A DNA stretch of 64,000 nt, from positions 5,332,001-5,396,000 of the forward strand of contig NC_003552.1 of assembly GCF_000007345.1 (NCBI RefSeq). Reading direction: 5' to 3'. This DNA comes from Methanosarcina acetivorans C2A. GTDB lineage: Archaea; Halobacteriota; Methanosarcinia; Methanosarcinales; Methanosarcinaceae. Made by a program: the position numbers and the translations under genes. Of this stretch, positions 52,583 to 61,707 are shown in pieces. The notes beneath the pieces were generated by a model. It saw only the letters and a program-made list of their open reading frames with translations. It ran no database searches and was not told where the DNA came from. The stretch's first letter is position 1; each line of letters starts with the position of its first letter.

Positions 52583-53317
52583 ACCGCAGCAGGGAAACAA
52601 AAGATAAATCTTCCCGGATCTACGGATATGTTTCAGGAAGGGAAAGCACCGGCACGTGTAAGTATTCAACTCTAGGAATGGAAATAAGTAAGTAGTTGGA
52701 CATCCAGGTACTGGCATGTGTAAGTGCTCAACCTGCAAGGACAGGAGAGGAACTCACCAGGAACTAACGATACCTTAGAAATTTTTTGAGTTTAACTTAA
52801 ATTTCTGACAAAGTAGAAAACCTTAAAACAGCCCTTCCAAAAGTAACCATAATATTAATATTAAACCATTATAATTTAGAGTATTTCGAGGATATTTTTA
52901 TAAATCGGAGAAATAAGAGAGATTTTCTTCAAAAATGAAGAAATAAACCCTTCCATTACTCCGAAATAAGTTACCATCTCTTTTTCAGAGTTTTGTCGAT
53001 TTTTTCCAGATAAAATATATATCACGATTAATAATTATCAATCTGTACAATAAACTTTATAATGTAAACCTATATAATATTAGGGAGTATTAGGCAGAAG
53101 CATTCCCGGGGAAGCAACCCCAGGATTAAATTTACGGTGGAATGTCAATACGATCAATACGAATTATAGAATTAACCCTATCATCTACACAGAGGACAGT
53201 TTCGAAAGTCTCGTTTTAAGCGAAAGAGGGGCTGGAAAGCCAGAACTCTCTACCCGGACTGAAAAACTGTTTTCAGCTTTTTTTAGCTGCCGGATTACGG
53301 TTTGAGGAGTGAATATA
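52583..53317. promoter_or_regulatory. Long leader and promoter region of the hydrogenase-like operon
   Basis: About 735 bases with no gene. A TATA-like CCTATATAATAT lies at 53069-53080, giving a leader of about 210 bases before the first gene. The leader can form small stems (CTGG-AAAG-CCAG near 53232-53243 and CAGCT-TTTTTT-AGCTG near 53274-53289). Two diverged copies of a roughly 30-base word (containing GGCACGTGTAAG / GGCATGTGTAAG) lie at about 52650 and 52712. No known riboswitch recognised. Confidence 0.45.
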
Positions 53318-55255
53318 TTGCTCGAAACCTTAGTGTACGGCGCAATTGCCGCTCTTGTATCCGGAACTGTCCTTCCTCTCCTGTACCGCAGTAAAAACAC
53401 AAGAAAGACTGCTTTTGGCCTTTCTCTTATCTCATCAATCCTGCTCCTGGTTTTTGCAGGTACGGTCCTTTATACAGGGAAAGAGCCCGTATTTCCGGCC
53501 ATCGGATTCCTGCCGGGCCTGGACTTCACCCTGGCTGCAGACCGGCTTTCAGCCGGGTTTATCCTCTTAATTGCAGCAGTCGTGCCCGGAGTTTCAATAT
53601 ATTCGGTCGAATATGTAGAACACGCAAAAAGCGAGGACGGGAAAAACCTGCAGGCAGCCCTGACAAATCTCTTTATCCTTGCCATGCTGATGGTCGTACT
53701 TGCAGGCAATATGGTAGGCTTCCTGATTTTCTGGGAAATAATGTCCCTTTCCTCGCTCCTACTGGTGCTGCATAACTATTCCTCGGAGGAGAACAAAAAA
53801 GCCGGCTTTTTCTACTTCGTGATGACAAATATCAGCACAGCTTTTCTCTTCCTGGGCTTCATAAGCCTCTTCAGGCTTACAGGCTCTACGGAGTTCGGAC
53901 CGCTTGAATACGCTGCAGGTGAGCTGACTCTTCCCTTCCTCTCCCTTTTTGTCGGCTTTGGGGTCAAGGCAGGACTTGTGCCTTTCCACAAGTGGCTGCC
54001 CTATGCCCACCCTGCAGCGCCGTCAAGTGTCTCGGCCCTGATGTCCGGAGTTATGCTGAAGGTTGCAGTCTACGGTTTCCTGCGTTTCCTGCTCTCAATC
54101 TCCACGCCTGAACTCTGGTGGGGAGTGCTTATCCTTACAGCAGGCAGCCTTTCAGCTCTCTTCGGGGTAATTTACGCCCTGAAAGAAAACGACATAAAAA
54201 GGCTCCTTGCCTACAGCAGCATTGAAAACATAGGGATCATTTTCACGGGAATCGGGCTATATGTCATCTTTGGGGTTGAAGGACTTGAAACCCTTGCCCT
54301 GTTAAGCCTTGTAGGAGCCTGTTTCCACTCCTTTAACCATGCCCTCTTCAAAAGCCTGCTTTTCCTCTGTGCAGGCTCGGTGGTTCATGCCACAGGCACA
54401 CGGAAAATCGAAGCCCTCGGGGGACTTGTAAAAAGCATGCCTGCGACCTCAGCCCTTTTCATGATAGGCTCGGTCTCGATTGCAGCCCTGCCCCCAACAA
54501 ACGGTTTTGCCGGCGAGCTCCTGCTCTACCAGGCTTTCTTCCAGTCCTTTGCCGTAACCGACCCCCTTCTTACCGTATTTCTAATAATTGCCCTCTCAAG
54601 CTTTGCTCTGACCGGAGCGCTGGCAGCTGCCCTTTTCGTAAAACTTTTCGGGATCACCTGCCTTGCCATGCCACGTTCGGAAAAGAGCCGCCTTGCAGAA
54701 GAAGTCCGGAAACCCATGCTGATAGGCCCCGCAGTGCCGGCAGCCTTCTGCATACTTGGAGGGCTTTTCTCAAAGCAGCTCCTTTCTCTTGCAGGCTGGA
54801 AGATTGAGTTTCCGGACCTGCTTTTGCTAGGATTTCTACTCGGGTTGATATATGCAGCCCTTTTCGTGCTGATCCGTACCCGTACAAAAGAAACGAACCC
54901 TTCAAGGATCAGCGAGACCTGGAGATGCGGAATTCCGACCGTTGCCCCTTACATGGAATACAGTTCTGCAGGCTTTTCCGAGCCTCTTGTGATGATCTTC
55001 AAAAGCGTTTATAGGACAAAGATCGTGCACAGAGCCGAGTACCTCGACAGGCAGGAAAGTCTCGTTAAGAATGGGAATGTGGAAATCCGCCTGGTCCGCT
55101 TCTTTGAAGAATACCTTTACATCCCTCCTGCACGGGCAATCGAGGGCTTTTCGAAATACGTTTCAAAACTGCAGAACGGAAAACTTGACAGTTACGTCCT
55201 TTACGCCTTTCTGGCAGTCATTGTATTGACAATAGCAACAGGAGGCTTTGTATGA
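53318..55255 (+). CDS. Hydrogenase-4/complex I-like membrane subunit, HyfB/HycC type (NuoL/MrpA family)
   Basis: First gene of a six-gene unit. About 645 residues and fifteen or so membrane helices of the ion-translocating antiporter family. Conserved blocks are present: GFLIFWEIMSLSSLLLVLHNY with the key Glu, FGVKAGLVPFHKWLPYAHPAAPSSVSALMSGVMLKVAVYG (in pieces) with the channel Lys and His, and LLAYSSIENIGII. These channel residues are intact, unlike the redox residues of the peripheral subunits. GTG 53309 is possible, but TTG 53318 has GAGGAG at ideal spacing. The C-terminal hydrophilic part (about 530-620) is typical of HyfB. It ends as GTATGA, overlapping the next gene. Confidence 0.9.
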   Translation: MLETLVYGAIAALVSGTVLPLLYRSKNTRKTAFGLSLISSILLLVFAGTVLYTGKEPVFPAIGFLPGLDFTLAADRLSAGFILLIAAVVPGVSIYSVEYVEHAKSEDGKNLQAALTNLFILAMLMVVLAGNMVGFLIFWEIMSLSSLLLVLHNYSSEENKKAGFFYFVMTNISTAFLFLGFISLFRLTGSTEFGPLEYAAGELTLPFLSLFVGFGVKAGLVPFHKWLPYAHPAAPSSVSALMSGVMLKVAVYGFLRFLLSISTPELWWGVLILTAGSLSALFGVIYALKENDIKRLLAYSSIENIGIIFTGIGLYVIFGVEGLETLALLSLVGACFHSFNHALFKSLLFLCAGSVVHATGTRKIEALGGLVKSMPATSALFMIGSVSIAALPPTNGFAGELLLYQAFFQSFAVTDPLLTVFLIIALSSFALTGALAAALFVKLFGITCLAMPRSEKSRLAEEVRKPMLIGPAVPAAFCILGGLFSKQLLSLAGWKIEFPDLLLLGFLLGLIYAALFVLIRTRTKETNPSRISETWRCGIPTVAPYMEYSSAGFSEPLVMIFKSVYRTKIVHRAEYLDRQESLVKNGNVEIRLVRFFEEYLYIPPARAIEGFSKYVSKLQNGKLDSYVLYAFLAVIVLTIATGGFV

Positions 55256-56193
55256 ACACCTCGTTCCTGCTCTTTGCCCTCTTAAATCCGCTTTTTGCCC
55301 TGCTGGCAGCTCCTCTGTACATGGCTCTGATCCGGAAGGTAAAGGCATATGCCCAGTGGAGAAAAGGCCCGAGGCTCTTTCAGGTCTATTACGACTTAAA
55401 AAAACTCATGCAAAAGGAAGCTGTCTATTCTCCGACTTCGTCATGGGTCATGCGCTTTACCCCATACCTCAACCTTTCGACCCTGCTCGTCTGTTCCCTC
55501 TTCGTACCCCTGATCTTTGTCCCGGAACCTGCAGGAGGGCTCGGAAACATTATTGTCTTCCTGTACCTCCTGGCGCTTGAAAGGTTCTTTACCGCCCTGG
55601 GAGGACTTGACGCCGGGAGTGCTTTCGGAGGCATGGGCAGTTCAAGGTCGATGAGCCTTGCAGCCGTAATCGAACCGACAATGGTGGTCTCTTTTGCAGC
55701 TCTTGCCTTTGTGCTGAAAAGCCTTAACCTGCACCGGATGTTTGCCCTTACTGCAGGCACGGTCCTTCCCATAAGCCCGACCCTTGTCCTGGTCTCAATC
55801 TCGCTTTTCATTATCCTTATAGTGGAAACCGGCAGGCTACCTGTGGACAACCCGGCGACTCACCTTGAACTTACCATGATTAATGAAGCAATGATCCTCG
55901 AACAGACAGGAAAGAACCTTGCCCTGCTGGAACTTGCCCATGCCCTTAAACAGTTCCTGTTGATGGGGATATTGATCAACACGATCCTTCCGGTAGGGCT
56001 CAGCACGGAAATCGATGCCGGAAAAATTGCGGTTTCAGCCCTTCTCTTCCTCCTGAAGGCAGGGCTGCTTGCAGTAATAATCGGGCTCTTTGAATCATCC
56101 GTTGCAAAGATGAGGCTCTTCAGGCTTCCTGCATTTTATGTGATGGCATTTTTCTTTTCAGCCCTTACCATCCTTATCGAGGTGTTTGCATGA
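55252..56193 (+). CDS. Hydrogenase-4/complex I-like membrane subunit, HyfC/HycD type (NuoH family)
   Basis: A 313-residue membrane protein with about eight helices, corresponding to NuoH, which links the peripheral redox arm to the membrane arm. Recognisable blocks: LIRKVKAYAQWRKGPRLFQVYYDLKKLMQKE (in pieces), GGLDAGSAFGGMGSSRSMSLA, and ETGRLPVDNPATHLELTMINEAM. The conserved acidic residues on the peripheral-facing loops (E and D in ETGRLPVDNP and EL..I.EAM) are kept. It overlaps both neighbours by 4 bases, so translation is coupled along the unit. Confidence 0.92.
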   Translation: MNTSFLLFALLNPLFALLAAPLYMALIRKVKAYAQWRKGPRLFQVYYDLKKLMQKEAVYSPTSSWVMRFTPYLNLSTLLVCSLFVPLIFVPEPAGGLGNIIVFLYLLALERFFTALGGLDAGSAFGGMGSSRSMSLAAVIEPTMVVSFAALAFVLKSLNLHRMFALTAGTVLPISPTLVLVSISLFIILIVETGRLPVDNPATHLELTMINEAMILEQTGKNLALLELAHALKQFLLMGILINTILPVGLSTEIDAGKIAVSALLFLLKAGLLAVIIGLFESSVAKMRLFRLPAFYVMAFFFSALTILIEVFA

Positions 56194-56876
56194 TTGACCC
56201 GCTCTTCCTTGAAGGCATAATAAAGATCCTTTTCGTCTTTGTCCTTATCAGTGCAGGGCTGATCATCTCAACCCGCAACCTGAGTTCGGTCCTTACAACT
56301 TATACCGTCCAGTCTTTCCTGCTGGCTGCTGTATCCTTCCTCCTCTACCTGATAGACGGGAAAGGGGAGCTTCTGCTGCTGGCAGGCCTGACCCTGGCAA
56401 GCAAAGTAATCCTGATCCCTTACTTTATCTCCAGGATAGAAGAAAAAATCAAAATCGGAAGAGACCTCCACTTTGCATATCTGGAGCCAACGACCTCCCT
56501 CCTTCTGAGCATAGGGATTATCCTCCTCTCCTATACCTTCCTTTCAAAGGTCTTCGAAGACCTGCCCCTCTCGAAACTCTTCTTCTTCGGGGCTGTTATC
56601 GGGCTTTCCCTGACCCTGATGGGCATGCTTGTGATGTTCAGCAGAAAAAAGGTCGTCACAAAAGCACTTGGCTACCTCAGCATGGAAAACGGAGTCCTGA
56701 TGTTCGGCCTCTTTGTTACCGAACTTCCCTTTATCATCGAAGTCCTGATCATAATCGACCTTATCATCCTGGTCATGCTGACCACGATTCTGGCTGTGGG
56801 GATGGATTCGAGCATTGAGGAGTACCGGCAGAAATTCCGGAAACTGCAGGTCTGGACAGGAGTTGAGTCCCAGTGA
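56190..56876 (+). CDS. Hydrogenase-4 subunit HyfE-like membrane protein (NuoK-related)
   Basis: A 228-residue membrane protein with six or seven helices. The central SAGLIISTRNLSSVLTTYTVQSF and the Glu-containing GYLSMENGVLMFGLF resemble HyfE, which holds a NuoK-like core. The C-terminal tail is hydrophilic (SSIEEYRQKFRKLQVW). HyfE subunits are found in hydrogenase-4 and in Ehr-type complexes but not in the short Ech hydrogenases, which helps place this unit. It overlaps both neighbouring genes by 4 bases. Confidence 0.88.
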   Translation: MIDPLFLEGIIKILFVFVLISAGLIISTRNLSSVLTTYTVQSFLLAAVSFLLYLIDGKGELLLLAGLTLASKVILIPYFISRIEEKIKIGRDLHFAYLEPTTSLLLSIGIILLSYTFLSKVFEDLPLSKLFFFGAVIGLSLTLMGMLVMFSRKKVVTKALGYLSMENGVLMFGLFVTELPFIIEVLIIIDLIILVMLTTILAVGMDSSIEEYRQKFRKLQVWTGVESQ

Positions 56877-58423
56877 TTCGGTATTATCTCCTGGTAATGG
56901 GACTGTTCCTGACACTCGGCCTGATTCCGAAGTCCCACAGGTTAATGAATGCTCTTGCCGCAGGAAACGGCCTCCTGCACCTTGCCATGAGCTGCGTTGC
57001 CCTGCTTATCTTTGACCTGCCCGGAAGGCTCGGAGAAACCCTCTATCTTGACCACCTCAACATTTACGTGGAACTAATAACAGCCCTGGGCTTTTCCGCA
57101 GCGGCCTTCTATGCCAGAGGATATACAGACAGCCTTATGGAAGCCGGAGAGCTTGACCCCAAAAATCTGAAGACCTTCTACCTTGCCTTCAACCTCCTGC
57201 TCATTACAGCCACTGTTGCGCTCTTTTCGGACAATCTGGCGCTATTCTGGATCTTTGCAGAACTCACAACGGTCTGCGCTGCCATGCTTGTTGCAATCCT
57301 TTCTGCGAGGGAGAATATCGATGCCGCCTTAAAGTACGTCTTCATAGTCTCCGGATCCATGCTCTTTGCTTTCCTCGGGCTGATTTTCCTCTTCACCCTC
57401 TCGGAACAGGCCCTAGGGGAAGGTACCCTTGACTGGACGGAGCTGGCAGTCCATGCCTCGGAGTTTTCACCTGCCCTCCTCCTTGCAAGCTTTAGCTTCA
57501 TGTTCATAGGCTTCGGGGCAAAAGCAGGAGTGGCTCCTTTCCACACCTGGCTCCCGGACGCCTATGCAAGAGCTCCATCGGTTAGTGCAATTCTCTCAGG
57601 GCTGATGCAGAACCTGGGGATCTACGGCATAATAAGGATATACGCCCTGCTCAAGGAAAACGGTGCTGCCTCCCAGGCATCTTTGATCCTGATAGCAGCC
57701 GGGGTTTTCTCAATTGCACTTGCGTCCTTCAGCATGTTCCAGCAGAGGAACTTAAAGCGACTGATAGCCTTTTCAAGCGTTGAGCACATGGGTCTGCTCC
57801 TCATAGGGATAGGGATAGGGACGCCTCTTGCCCTTTTCTGGACTTTGTTTTACATGCTCGTCCATGTCCTAGTAAAGGAAACTCTCCTGTTTTCCGCAGG
57901 CATCCTGCACAGGCAGTACAGGAGCAACATGCGCGAAGACATGAAAGACGTCTTTAAACTCCAGCCAAGAGCTGCCTGGGGCCTTATCCTCGGGAGCATT
58001 GCAATCATAGGAATGCCGCCTTTCCCCCTCTTTCCGGCAAAATTCTTCATCCTGCTGGAAAGCGCGGAGATTTCGCCCTACCTGACCCTTGCGGTGCTGC
58101 TGATGCTCATCCTTGCAGCCGCTTCCTTTGCAAACTTCCTCCTGAAAGCTTTCTCAAAGGTGACTATCGAGGGAGAAAATAGAAAAGAAGAGCACAGCCA
58201 CACAACAGGGGCTCCTGAAGGAAAAGGAGGAGCCGTAAAGGAAAGCTCCGCAGGAAAAGCAGGAAATGAGGAAAGAAGGCTTCCAACCAGGTATATGGTG
58301 AGGGAAGGGATGAGGGTCCCGGTGGTTTTCATGCTGGCTCTGGCCCTTGTCCTCGGCTTCTATTTCCCGGACGCGCTTAAGAACCTGCTTGATGCGATAA
58401 TTCTTGAACTCGGGTATGTGTAA
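56873..58423 (+). CDS. Hydrogenase-4/complex I-like membrane subunit, HyfF type (NuoN/NuoM family)
   Basis: Second antiporter-like subunit, 516 residues and about fourteen helices. Conserved blocks: LALFWIFAELTTVCAAMLVAI with the membrane Glu, FGAKAGVAPFHTWLPDAYARAPSVSAILSGLMQNLGIYG (in pieces) with Lys and His, and LIAFSSVEHMGLLLIG. The second channel Lys of many NuoN/NuoM proteins is Gln/Asn here (LMQNLG), as in several HyfF proteins. A hydrophilic insertion of about 45 residues with a His-rich start (EEHSHTTGAPEGKGG) interrupts the last helices at about 433-478. The start is GTG 56873, overlapping the previous stop. Confidence 0.9.
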   Translation: MIRYYLLVMGLFLTLGLIPKSHRLMNALAAGNGLLHLAMSCVALLIFDLPGRLGETLYLDHLNIYVELITALGFSAAAFYARGYTDSLMEAGELDPKNLKTFYLAFNLLLITATVALFSDNLALFWIFAELTTVCAAMLVAILSARENIDAALKYVFIVSGSMLFAFLGLIFLFTLSEQALGEGTLDWTELAVHASEFSPALLLASFSFMFIGFGAKAGVAPFHTWLPDAYARAPSVSAILSGLMQNLGIYGIIRIYALLKENGAASQASLILIAAGVFSIALASFSMFQQRNLKRLIAFSSVEHMGLLLIGIGIGTPLALFWTLFYMLVHVLVKETLLFSAGILHRQYRSNMREDMKDVFKLQPRAAWGLILGSIAIIGMPPFPLFPAKFFILLESAEISPYLTLAVLLMLILAAASFANFLLKAFSKVTIEGENRKEEHSHTTGAPEGKGGAVKESSAGKAGNEERRLPTRYMVREGMRVPVVFMLALALVLGFYFPDALKNLLDAIILELGYV

Positions 58424-58435
58424 GGAGCGGTAGAT

Positions 58436-60073
58436 ATGGATGTCAAAATGAATGAGGATACAAAGGAATTGCTTTCAACGATTTCGGGCATTGCGGAAGA
58501 AGAGCCCGAACTGCTCAGTGCCCGGGAAAACGAAATATACCTGAAAATTTCGGAAGCAGGGTTTGAAGATATAACCCCTGCACTTGCGGAAAGGAAGTTC
58601 AGCCTAATAGGCCTCTTCTGTGCGGAAGTTTTTGAAAATACTGACGGTTTTACTCTCTTTTATGCTTTCAAACAGGCAGGAAAAGCCTCTGTCCTTGTAC
58701 TTGTCCGGGAGCCGGGAAAAGAAAAAAGAGTCAGCTCGGTTGCAGGAATTTTCCCTTCAGCCTCCTGGTTTGAGCGGGAAATAAGGGACGGATTCGGGCT
58801 GGACTTCGCCGGAGCCCTTGATAATAGAAGACTTTTCCTGCACGAGTGCTATCACGAAGGTTTCCATCCCCTGCAAAAGGCTTTCAAAAACGGGCCGGTT
58901 CATCCGGTTGAAACTCCTAGCAAGGAATACAAATTCAGACAGGTTAAAGGCGAAGGTGTGTACCAGATCCCTGTCGGGCCCGTGCATGCCGGAATAATCG
59001 AACCCGGGCATTTCAGATTCAGCGTGATAGGAGAGCCCATATTCAGCCTTGAAATCCGGCTTTTTTACAAGCACAGGGGCATAGAAAAACTGGCTGAAGG
59101 AAAAAGCCCCTCGGAATGCGTCGCTCTTGCCGAAGCCGTGAGCGGGGATGAGAGCATGGCAAATGCAACAGGGTTCTGCATGGCAGTGGAGCAGGCCTGC
59201 GGAATAAGCGTGCCTGAAAGGGCTGAACGCTTGCGAGCAATAATGCTTGAGCTCGAACGTATCTATTCCCTGTTAGGAGACCTTGCCGGAATGGCTGTTG
59301 ATGTTGGTTTCGCGCTTGTTGCAAGCCCCTTCTCCATATTGAGGGAAGAGGTATTCAGGCAGAACGAAAAACTGACCGGCTCAAGATTCCTGCGCGGGAT
59401 TACCGTTTTAGGAGGGCTGAAAAAAGATATTCCCGATTCGGCTTTGAAAGAGCTTCCAGCCTTCCTTGAGAAATTTTCGCGGGCATTTGAATCGGCTTAT
59501 GACAGAGCGATGTCTTCATCTTCCCTTATCGACAGGTTTGCAACGACAGGTGTGATAAAAAAGGAACTTGTCTCCCCACTTAACCTTACAGGTCCCCTTG
59601 CCAGGGCTTCAGGCTGCCCTGCCGACACCCGGATTGACAGGCCCTATGGAGCCTACAGGGACTTTGCCCCGGAACCTTCAGTCAGGAAAAGAGGGGATGT
59701 GCTCTCACGCTTTGAGATAAAAGCCGATGAGATCCGGGCATCAGTGAACCTGATCCTTCGACTTACAGAAAACCTTCCGCAGGAACCCGTATTTGCTGAA
59801 AACAGGGAGGAAGCTGAAAATATAGGGCAGAACTCAGGGAAAAACGGCAGCTCAGGAGTCACAGGATATTCACTTGCCCTCGTAGAAGCTGCGAGAGGAC
59901 AGAACCTGCACTGGGTCTACCTGAAAAACGGGCTTATTGACAGGTATAAGGTCAGGACCGCATCTTACTGCAACTGGCAGGCTATAGAACATGCAGTAAT
60001 CGGAAACATTGTTCCTGATTTCCCCCTGATAAACAAGAGCCTTAACCTTTCATACGCTGGGACCGACCTTTGA
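58436..60073 (+). CDS. Hydrogenase large-subunit-like protein (HyfG/HycE, NuoCD fusion) lacking both [NiFe] cysteine pairs
   Basis: A 545-residue peripheral subunit. Residues about 1-160 are NuoC-like (ASWFEREIRDGFGLDF); about 175-545 are NuoD/hydrogenase large-subunit-like (VGPVHAGIIEPGHFRF, EIRLFYKHRGIEKL). In [NiFe] hydrogenases the first cysteine pair sits in RICGxC-type sequence; here the site reads AVSGDESMANATGFC (SGDES about 236-240) with no CxxC. The second pair should be DPCxxC near the C-terminus; here the protein ends SLNLSYAGTDL. No [NiFe] site can form. This is the defining trait of energy-converting-hydrogenase-related (Ehr) complexes. It starts 12 bases after the previous gene, with AAGGAG. 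Confidence 0.92.
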   Translation: MDVKMNEDTKELLSTISGIAEEEPELLSARENEIYLKISEAGFEDITPALAERKFSLIGLFCAEVFENTDGFTLFYAFKQAGKASVLVLVREPGKEKRVSSVAGIFPSASWFEREIRDGFGLDFAGALDNRRLFLHECYHEGFHPLQKAFKNGPVHPVETPSKEYKFRQVKGEGVYQIPVGPVHAGIIEPGHFRFSVIGEPIFSLEIRLFYKHRGIEKLAEGKSPSECVALAEAVSGDESMANATGFCMAVEQACGISVPERAERLRAIMLELERIYSLLGDLAGMAVDVGFALVASPFSILREEVFRQNEKLTGSRFLRGITVLGGLKKDIPDSALKELPAFLEKFSRAFESAYDRAMSSSSLIDRFATTGVIKKELVSPLNLTGPLARASGCPADTRIDRPYGAYRDFAPEPSVRKRGDVLSRFEIKADEIRASVNLILRLTENLPQEPVFAENREEAENIGQNSGKNGSSGVTGYSLALVEAARGQNLHWVYLKNGLIDRYKVRTASYCNWQAIEHAVIGNIVPDFPLINKSLNLSYAGTDL

Positions 60074-60119
60074 ACCAGGAGTAATAAAGAGTAATAAAGA
60101 AACACATTGAGGTCTGATT

Positions 60120-60632
60120 ATGGTAAACCCTCTTTCCCTCTTTCTCCGCCCTAAAGTTACGGAGACCTTTAAATTCCGGGATGAAGAACTCGAAGCACTT
60201 GGAGAAGAAATCAAAAAAGAGATCCCGAAAGTTTTCGGGCACAGCCTTGCCATCCGCGAACTGGATTCAGGCAGTGACAACTCCACCGAGATTGAGATCT
60301 CAAACCTCGGGAACCCTCATTATGATGTTGAGAGGTTCGGGATCTCTTTTGTGGCTTCCCCGAGGCATGCTGACATCCTGCTAGTAACAGGAGCTGTCAC
60401 CCTTAACATGGCGGAAGCCGTGAAAAAAACCTATGAAGCCATGCCCTCCCCTAAGTTTGTGGTAGCAGTCGGAGACGACGCTTGTGACGGCGGGATTTAT
60501 AAGGATTCTTATGCCGTACTCAGCGGGGTTGACAAAATCCTGCCCGTGGATATGAAAATTCCCGGGAACCCGCCCTCTCCGAAAGAGATTTTGAAAGGGA
60601 TTTTAGCCCTTGTAAAAAAAGCCTCTAAATAA
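60120..60632 (+). CDS. Hydrogenase small-subunit-like protein (HyfI/HycG, NuoB family) lacking all iron-sulfur ligands
   Basis: A 170-residue NuoB-fold protein, clearly homologous over its length: FVASPRHADILLVTGAVTLNM, VVAVGDDACDGG and MKIPGNPPSP. The four cysteines that bind the proximal [4Fe-4S] cluster are all changed. GSCNGCEIEI-type sequence is GSDNSTEIEI (Asp53, Thr56), the GDC Cys is Asp120 (with a Cys two positions later at 122), and PGCPPSP is PGNPPSP (Asn150). No cluster could be held in the usual way. The gene follows the large-subunit gene by 46 bases and is followed by a hairpin terminator, so it ends the operon. Confidence 0.92.
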   Translation: MVNPLSLFLRPKVTETFKFRDEELEALGEEIKKEIPKVFGHSLAIRELDSGSDNSTEIEISNLGNPHYDVERFGISFVASPRHADILLVTGAVTLNMAEAVKKTYEAMPSPKFVVAVGDDACDGGIYKDSYAVLSGVDKILPVDMKIPGNPPSPKEILKGILALVKKASK

Positions 60633-60759: not shown

Positions 60760-61707
60760 ATGAAGAAAAACTCCCAGAACAGCGTAGGCTCGGATGGAAA
60801 AAGCATGTCTGAAAGTTCGGGAAATCAAGATGCACAAACAGGAAAGGAAGTAGCTGCCACCAAAAAGTGGCTTTCAGTTAAAGAAGCCGAAGCTCTCGGC
60901 TATTACGATTTTATGAGTTACCTGGGAGTGCCCTACTACCATACAGGCGGTCTCGTATCCACCGGAAAACTTGCTGAGTTATGCCGGATCGACTCAAATA
61001 AAAAAGTCCTGATGGTAGGCTGTGGGACCGGTTTTTCTGCCTGCTACCTTGCCCGAAAAATAGGCTGTGAGGTTGTGGGAATTGATATTGCGGAAGTTTC
61101 AATCGAGGAAGCAAAAGAAAGAGCCAGAAGGCAGAGAGTTTCGGATAAGGCAAAATTCAGGGTGGGAGACGCCTATGCCCTGCCCTTTGAAGCCGGGACA
61201 TTTGACGCAGTGGTAACTGAGTCTGTTTCCCAGTTCCTGGACAGGAAAAAGGCCTTCAAAGAATTCTCACGGGTCCTGAAACCGGGAGGCTATATAGGAA
61301 TCAACGAAATGTATAAAGAGGAGAAGATTCCCCCGAAAACCGCTGAAGAAATCGCTCACGCAGAAGAAGTATTCAGGGAAATTACAGGGCTTCCCTTTTC
61401 CCTTCCCACACCAGAAGAATGGAAAAAAGGACTTGAAGAAGTGGGACTGAAAGAAATAAATGTCCGAAAGTTCAGACCTTCCCCGAGTCTCGGAGAAATA
61501 AAAACGTTTATAGAGGGAATGGAAGGAATCTGGAACTTTACCTTCCACTTTGCAGAGCTGATGTTGAAAATAGGAAAGTACTCCCTGTTCAGCAGAAAGA
61601 TCCGTTACCGGTTCAAAAGGCTGGGAGAAGGTAAAAAAATCCTGCTCCGAAAAAAGTCAACCTCAAAATATGCAGGTTACGTCCTCGCTACCGGAATAAA
61701 GGAATAG
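60760..61707 (+). CDS. Class I SAM-dependent methyltransferase
   Basis: A 315-residue methyltransferase. Residues 1-35 are hydrophilic and Ser/Lys-rich. The catalytic fold follows: motif I VLMVGCGTGFSACYLARKIG at about 84-103, acidic motif II VVGIDIAEVS, and FRVGDAYALPFEAGTFDAVV; the post-motif VLKPGGYIGINEMYKEE is present. The C-terminal part (about 225-315) is basic. It resembles sterol/gamma-tocopherol-type or UbiE-like enzymes but the substrate is not evident. It lies 127 bases after the hydrogenase-like operon behind a terminator, so co-regulation is uncertain. Confidence 0.85.
   Translation: MKKNSQNSVGSDGKSMSESSGNQDAQTGKEVAATKKWLSVKEAEALGYYDFMSYLGVPYYHTGGLVSTGKLAELCRIDSNKKVLMVGCGTGFSACYLARKIGCEVVGIDIAEVSIEEAKERARRQRVSDKAKFRVGDAYALPFEAGTFDAVVTESVSQFLDRKKAFKEFSRVLKPGGYIGINEMYKEEKIPPKTAEEIAHAEEVFREITGLPFSLPTPEEWKKGLEEVGLKEINVRKFRPSPSLGEIKTFIEGMEGIWNFTFHFAELMLKIGKYSLFSRKIRYRFKRLGEGKKILLRKKSTSKYAGYVLATGIKE

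Follow-up and report, generated by a model that had tools for sequence, protein, structure and literature searches.

The way in which complex I links electron transfer and ion movement is an old problem. A natural relative with coupling and ion-moving parts but no recognised redox ligands would allow the two processes to be considered separately. Whether such a relative exists is asked here of a six-gene operon at positions 53309-60632 of a 64,000-nucleotide stretch (the window) of the Methanosarcina acetivorans C2A chromosome, a host that appears to be genetically tractable. Its last gene, B, encodes a NuoB-type small subunit in which the four cysteines of the [4Fe-4S] cluster are replaced. 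Since the [NiFe] ligands of the large subunit and the ferredoxin-type subunit are gone too, the question concerns a whole complex without redox centres and not one cluster. All metal centres that normally carry electrons seem to have been lost and ion-moving parts are intact, so the complex probably moves ions without electron transfer, a reading that is given slightly better than an even chance. The narrower proposal, that B serves as small subunit in a redox-free ion translocator of six subunits within the complex I/group 4 hydrogenase superfamily, is about evenly balanced.

Small subunit B and its former cluster site

The gene for B was located as follows.

60120-60632, + strand: B, NuoB/HycG/MbhJ-like small subunit without the [4Fe-4S] ligand set, 170 amino acids (Pfam, phmmer, predicted structure)

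B was assigned to the Oxidored_q6/NuoB family (Pfam, 96.6 bits against a cut-off of 27), and the NCBIfam NuoB subfamily also matched. The phmmer alignment with MbhJ of the respiratory membrane-bound hydrogenase (6cfw_J) was gap-free. It paired D53, T56, D120 and N150 of B, which lie in the motifs GSDNSTEIEI, VGDDACDGG and IPGNPPSP of the open reading frame (ORF), with Cys35, Cys38, Cys102 and Cys132 of MbhJ, as counted from the printed alignment. An AlphaFold2 model of B (20-sequence alignment) reached a mean predicted local distance difference test (pLDDT) score of 89.6. It was superposed on 6cfw_J over residues 36-170 against 18-152, with 135 of 135 residues aligned (root-mean-square deviation 1.5, Z 19.8); being ungapped over this length, the superposition shows that the one-to-one register holds in three dimensions too. 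Gap-free alignment and superposition together indicate that the NuoB fold is retained and that the four residues occupy the ligand positions, in agreement with the initial annotation, which had read both points from the sequence. The siting of the acidic residues in the cavity is taken from the ungapped superposition. Cys122, also named in the initial annotation, is indeed the sole cysteine in the translated ORF.

For conservation analysis, 103 distinct NuoB-like sequences were aligned after three short B fragments had been dropped; 56 of them form the window's group. All had been picked by similarity to the window's B and are an uneven sample. Residue counts at the positions in question were as follows.

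60276-60278, + strand: Asp53, ligand position 1; D in 55 and X in 1 of 56 orthologues
60285-60287, + strand: Thr56, ligand position 2; T 30, A 20, P 3 and V 3 of 56, unconstrained
60477-60479, + strand: Asp120, ligand position 3; D 53 and E 3 of 56
60483-60485, + strand: Cys122; C in 56/56 orthologues, in 64/64 cluster-less sequences of both groups (see below) and in 19/39 cluster-bearing relatives
60567-60569, + strand: Asn150, ligand position 4; N 54 and D 2 of 56

Orthologues with the four [4Fe-4S] cysteines (N2 or proximal cluster) were looked for, and not one ligand cysteine was found among the 56 distinct sequences. Three of the four replacements are conserved across these orthologues and so pass the orthologue check suggested in the initial annotation, as acid (Asp53), acid (Asp/Glu120) and amide or acid (Asn/Asp150). 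The fourth had been listed as a replacement on a par with the others; position 56 varies, and no conserved role can be assigned to Thr56.

The ratio of nonsynonymous to synonymous substitution rates (dN/dS, Nei-Gojobori) between the window's B and five Methanosarcina-type orthologues was 0.06-0.11. On this ratio, and because the group is a single clade with fixed replacements, a pseudogene or recent decay was rejected. By these comparisons the ligand loss is specific, old and under purifying selection, which bears out the original statement that it is not decay.

Large subunit and operon

B is preceded by five genes on the same strand, with 4-base overlaps or close spacing throughout.

53309-55255, + strand: L, HyfB/HycC/MrpD-like antiporter subunit, 648 amino acids (Pfam, NCBIfam and PDB match)
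55252-56193, + strand: H, NuoH/HycD-like subunit, 313 amino acids (Pfam and PDB match)
56190-56876, + strand: E, HyfE-like membrane subunit, 228 amino acids (NCBIfam hydrogenase 4 membrane subunit, 63.9 bits, under the cut-off of 136)
56873-58423, + strand: F, HyfF/NuoM/NuoN-like antiporter subunit, 516 amino acids (Pfam, NCBIfam)
58436-60073, + strand: CD, large subunit, fused NuoC/NuoD or HycE-like, lacking all four [NiFe] cysteines, 545 amino acids

In the PDB, CD, H and L matched best to HycE, HycD and HycC of Escherichia coli formate hydrogenlyase. The order L-H-E-F-CD-B was found in all 42 clade operons that are complete on their loci. Residues were counted by operon in these 42, in 13 operons with B cysteines and without [NiFe] cysteines (12 for L), in 8 from Chloroflexota and in 4 with both sets of cysteines. 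Three sites of CD are central to the comparison.

59141-59152, + strand: CD S236-G-D-E239, where the first CxxC of the [NiFe] site would lie; E239 in 42/42
60044-60061, + strand: CD N537-L-S539-Y-A-G542, in place of D-P-C-x-x-C; Asn537 corresponds to the canopy Asp529 of HycE
58985-58987, + strand: CD His184, the counterpart of HycE His188 in the beta1-beta2 loop, 42/42 (role as given in passages of PMC9474812)

The two CxxC motifs of a group 4 [NiFe] hydrogenase are absent from the clade. Position 236 is S in 40 operons, G in one and C in one, this last being a lone cysteine, and E239, S539 and G542 are each found in 42/42. D238 is invariant like E239, and the position of the canopy Asp529 is N in 41 operons and D in one. 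Two residues around the first CxxC that are common in relatives have changed as well: the preceding Arg (position 234) is replaced by A, S, T, V or C, and the following His (position 243) by N in 42/42. In the relatives with B cysteines and without [NiFe] cysteines (n = 13), Arg 234 is kept in 12/13 and His 243 in 13/13, with N, S or T at position 239. The 12-residue offset between chain and native numbering of HycE was inferred from the two lengths. The model of CD matched HycE, but its C-terminus and residues 153-213 were of low confidence, and sequence alignment was therefore used for CD's part of the cavity.

Same-strand ORFs in the operons or up to 300 bases away were scanned for the ferredoxin-type motif CxxCxxCxxxC, and for this motif alone. 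It was found in 0/42 clade operons and in 23/28 operons of other groups. The membrane subunits expected of a group 4 [NiFe] hydrogenase, NuoH-like and antiporter-like, are present. No conserved partner gene was found in the 5 kb flanks of 26 operons; the commonest flanking family was a generic ATP-binding cassette (ABC)-type ATPase (6/26, at variable position), and other families occurred in 3 or 4. Because recognised ligand sets in CD and B, the ferredoxin motif in the operon and a conserved partner are all lacking, electron transfer through the complex is unlikely. The unit is self-contained and occurs across archaea and bacteria of differing metabolism, which supports a redox-free reading.

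Residues of the ion path

Ion-path residues described in passages of PMC9474812, on the structure of formate hydrogenlyase, were mapped onto the operon via alignments. In H, Y105, E141, E192 and E212 (HycD Y102, E138, E189 and E206) and E206 (HycD E203) are invariant in 42/42. H204, at the place of HycD E201, is likewise found in 42/42 and is the same in all groups. E143, K220, H344, K348 and E403 of L (E403 in transmembrane helix 12) are present in 42/42 operons and K251 in 39/42; in F the figures are 42/42 for E130, K217 and K335 and 34/42 for H331. F K390 (helix 12; window 58040-58042) is Lys in 39/42 clade operons and Glu in 25/25 relatives. Helix labels for L and F partly follow the complex I literature. 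CD Arg487, corresponding to the canopy Arg478 of HycE, is found in 42/42.

By sequence, the Lys/Glu pairs of L and F are kept, as are the coupling loops (CD His184 and canopy Arg487) and the greater part of the glutamate channel of H. With ligand residues lost and channel and coupling residues retained, the electron side has been removed and the ion side preserved, with clade-specific changes at CD E239, CD N243 and F K390. The change at F K390 in the membrane arm may belong to a new working mode.

Origin of the ligand loss

A tree of B and CD (82 rows, 671 columns) was calculated with a quick IQ-TREE run and contains long branches. The alignment excluded position 122, eight columns of the NiFe site and the four Fe-S columns, together with near-identical rows and locus L010, in which CD is split. 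The window's group (42 rows) formed one clade on a long stem of 0.9, with a Shimodaira-Hasegawa-like approximate likelihood ratio test (SH-aLRT) value of 100. Its neighbours are groups with B cysteines and without [NiFe] cysteines.

A second set of B sequences without the cluster ligands comprises eight from Chloroflexota (L124, L125 and L152-L157), for example:

L124, 4622-5554, - strand: Chloroflexota group 4 hydrogenase
L125, 8375-9286, + strand: Chloroflexota group 4 hydrogenase

In the B+CD tree this set is placed among sequences bearing the [NiFe] as well as the B cysteines. The four cluster positions read [DE]-[TCA]-[ED]-[DS] and Cys122 is present in 8/8. All four [NiFe] cysteines are kept, and a ferredoxin-type motif lies in the same ORF as B; judged by these residues, the set is possibly a hydrogenase without a proximal cluster. 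A single origin of ligand loss for both sets was rejected on B+CD (approximately unbiased (AU) test, p 2.6e-6). With B alone (161 columns; seven columns and rows L002 and L057 left out) it was not rejected (p 0.117). A single origin of the Chloroflexota set was not rejected either (p 0.144), though the free B+CD tree splits the set. The loss in Chloroflexota is apparently independent of that in the window's clade. The two sets may differ in how they work, since the [NiFe] site persists in the Chloroflexota set. Similar acids in a second, apparently independent loss nevertheless make an ion- or ligand-binding role for the B cavity more likely, and the recurrence of acids at positions 53 and 120, together with the invariance of Cys122 in cluster-less sequences against 19/39 in cluster-bearing ones, argues that the new residues have a function.

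Proposed mode of action and alternatives

The retained coupling loops and channels point to gradient-driven ion translocation, with the peripheral arm as cap and gate and the acidic cavity as sensor. The six proteins would assemble like formate hydrogenlyase. The membrane arm would act as a secondary exchanger of H+ against Na+ or K+, or of H+ alone when gated, and would be powered by an ion gradient in place of electrons. The CD-B peripheral part would be non-catalytic and would cap the proton channel. The former cofactor cavity would now be an acidic site formed by Asp53, Asp120 and Asn150 of B and by Asp238 and Glu239 of CD, which would take up and release a proton or cation and thereby control the gate. 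A secondary exchanger gated in this way is the preferred form of the ion-movement reading. The further proposal that the cofactor cavity between large and small subunits was rebuilt, separately in at least two lineages, as an acidic metal, proton or substrate site, and that binding there works the membrane arm of the clade through the very coupling loops that answer to quinone or NiFe chemistry in complex I and formate hydrogenlyase, is put forward tentatively and is the less probable side of the question.

Several points weigh against ion movement without electrons. The exchanger idea is drawn from homology, and the membrane arms of group 4 enzymes are usually redox-driven. Operon content leaves room for a redox partner encoded elsewhere, and Cys122 and the acids could hold an electron-passing metal. 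Two positions of the H channel are not fixed: position 133 (HycD E130) is E in 28/42 operons and S, L, A or D in the others, the window included, and position 202 (HycD E199) is E in 29/42 and A in 13. Finally, subunits of the MrpE-G type are absent, so the operon does not encode an Mrp antiporter.

Among other explanations, the cavity might be a non-redox catalytic or ligand site, for CO2 hydration or for a divalent metal, a nucleotide or a metabolite, that drives or gates ion movement. Coupling to CO2 hydration has been proposed for NDH-1 and DAB-type systems. As such a site would lead one to expect, CD D238 and E239 are invariant in the clade, and Cys122, acids at 53 and 120 and an acid or amide at 150 recur in both cluster-less groups, for which the B+CD tree rejects a single origin. 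However, no conserved partner gene was found beyond the six, no recognised metal or nucleotide motif was seen, and the acids may mean something else in the Chloroflexota group, which retains its [NiFe] site; this explanation is considered unlikely. Slightly less credit is given to a structural patch, in which a hydrogen-bonded network of acids and amide fills the hole and the peripheral arm serves as a scaffold for the membrane arm. Drift at position 56 and the tolerated swaps of D/E at 120 and N/D at 150 fit a patch. Against it, a hole could equally be filled by apolar or small residues, whereas both groups have carboxylates at 53 and 120, and CD E239 and N243 are clade-specific and fixed in 42/42.

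That the complex is still an oxidoreductase, with a mononuclear metal on D53, D120, C122 and N150 or with a flavin or quinone-like carrier elsewhere, is improbable. The distribution of Cys122 between cluster-less and cluster-bearing sequences and the intact coupling loops would agree with it; the ferredoxin-type motif missing from and beside all 42 operons, the lack of a conserved redox neighbour gene and the loss of the [NiFe] CxxC pairs, the canopy Asp (Asn in 41/42) and the active-site residues Arg 234 and His 243 speak against it. Hardly any weight is left for a group 4 hydrogenase decaying toward loss, as pseudogene or relic: a few broken copies exist (B fragments at L026 and L027, a split CD at L010), but dN/dS is low and a single clade spans two domains with fixed replacements and identical gene order.

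Comparison with known systems

Energy-converting hydrogenase-related (Ehr) complexes reportedly go back to Marreiros et al. in 2013. They are described in passages of PMC6349859 as complexes without [NiFe] ligands and with Mrp-type subunits, and both features are found in the window's clade. Shared traits are a group 4 hydrogenase-like operon, a NuoD-like subunit without [NiFe] ligands and antiporter-like subunits, and the neighbouring tree groups of the clade are of the Ehr type with B cysteines. Unlike these, the clade also lacks a ferredoxin-type subunit and the ligands of the proximal [4Fe-4S] cluster, and for this reason the redox-coupled charge translocation suspected for Ehr may not hold for it. 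By its large subunit, the operon fits the wide Ehr definition. A literature search at the level of listings and passages, with the original Ehr paper outside it, returned no account of a cluster-less NuoB-like subunit, which is no proof of absence.

Hydrogenase-4 and formate hydrogenlyase (HyfBCEFGI, HycCDEG; 7z0s) share the subunit types of the clade. Absent from the clade are a [NiFe] site, the [4Fe-4S] ligands of the small subunit and, within the operon, a ferredoxin-type motif. HycC of formate hydrogenlyase, according to passages of PMC9474812, has Leu208 where L of the clade has the lysine of transmembrane helix 7 (LysTM7). Complex I (NuoB/PSST, NuoCD, NuoH, NuoLMN) resembles the clade in the folds of B and CD and in most E-channel and antiporter Lys/Glu residues; in the clade, however, the ligands of cluster N2 are missing, and NuoEFG and NuoI are not in the operon. 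Mrp Na+/H+ antiporters likewise have antiporter-like subunits without redox chemistry, and MrpA/MrpD-like subunits are present here. A full mrpA-G (or mrpA'C-G) cluster is not, as the Pfam matches of the window operon include no MrpE-G, and the operon has NuoH-, NuoCD- and NuoB-like subunits, none of which occur in Mrp. The Chloroflexota group 4 [NiFe] hydrogenases have lost the same B cysteines, with acids as the usual replacement, and have Cys122 invariant, but differ in their four [NiFe] cysteines, their B-fused ferredoxin-type motif and their separate tree position.

Distribution

A contig scan gave 22 loci, in Methanosarcina, Methanoregula, Woesearchaeota, Dehalococcoidia, a metagenome-assembled genome (MAG) of Thermoplasmata, one Acidobacteria MAG and others. 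Close orthologues (E <= 1.1e-84) were found in 16 of 149 genomes of the window's order and in 12 of the 20 Methanosarcina-genus genomes sampled, the window's own counted. In the class of the Dehalococcoidales MAG, 21 of 245 genomes had a match at E < 1e-50, 16 of these at E <= 1.2e-69. The phylum of the Woesearchaeota MAG had a match in 3/194 genomes. Among 15 carriers of the class Dehalococcoidia, 10 had 18-50 matches to reductive dehalogenase (PF13486), and two more had 2 and 4.

Hydrogenases of D. mccartyi listed in passages of a metagenome paper (PMC8516407) include 'Hyf' and 'hydrogenase membrane subunit' genes. The clade operon in Dehalococcoidia is probably what is annotated there as 'Hyf hydrogenase'. 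The present reading suggests that gene sets which probably carry 'hydrogenase 4/Hyf' annotations in methanogens and organohalide-respiring Dehalococcoidia are not hydrogenases, which would alter how the energy metabolism of both is drawn.

Additional observations

Broken second copies of B were seen at loci L026 and L027, contigs of MAG BL5_bin.6, beside the intact L014, and may be strain variants or relics. At L010 (7810-9916) the CD frame is split in two in MAG UBA9310, possibly by an assembly error or in a broken gene. Some related cluster-bearing operons in other genomes of the window's taxonomic order (L044, L048, L050 and L052) carry two L-type antiporter genes in tandem. Directly downstream of B, outside the conserved unit, an ORF at window 60760-61707 was read from the sequence as S-adenosylmethionine (SAM)-dependent methyltransferase-like; a match downstream of the operon was seen in only some of the Methanosarcina-type loci.
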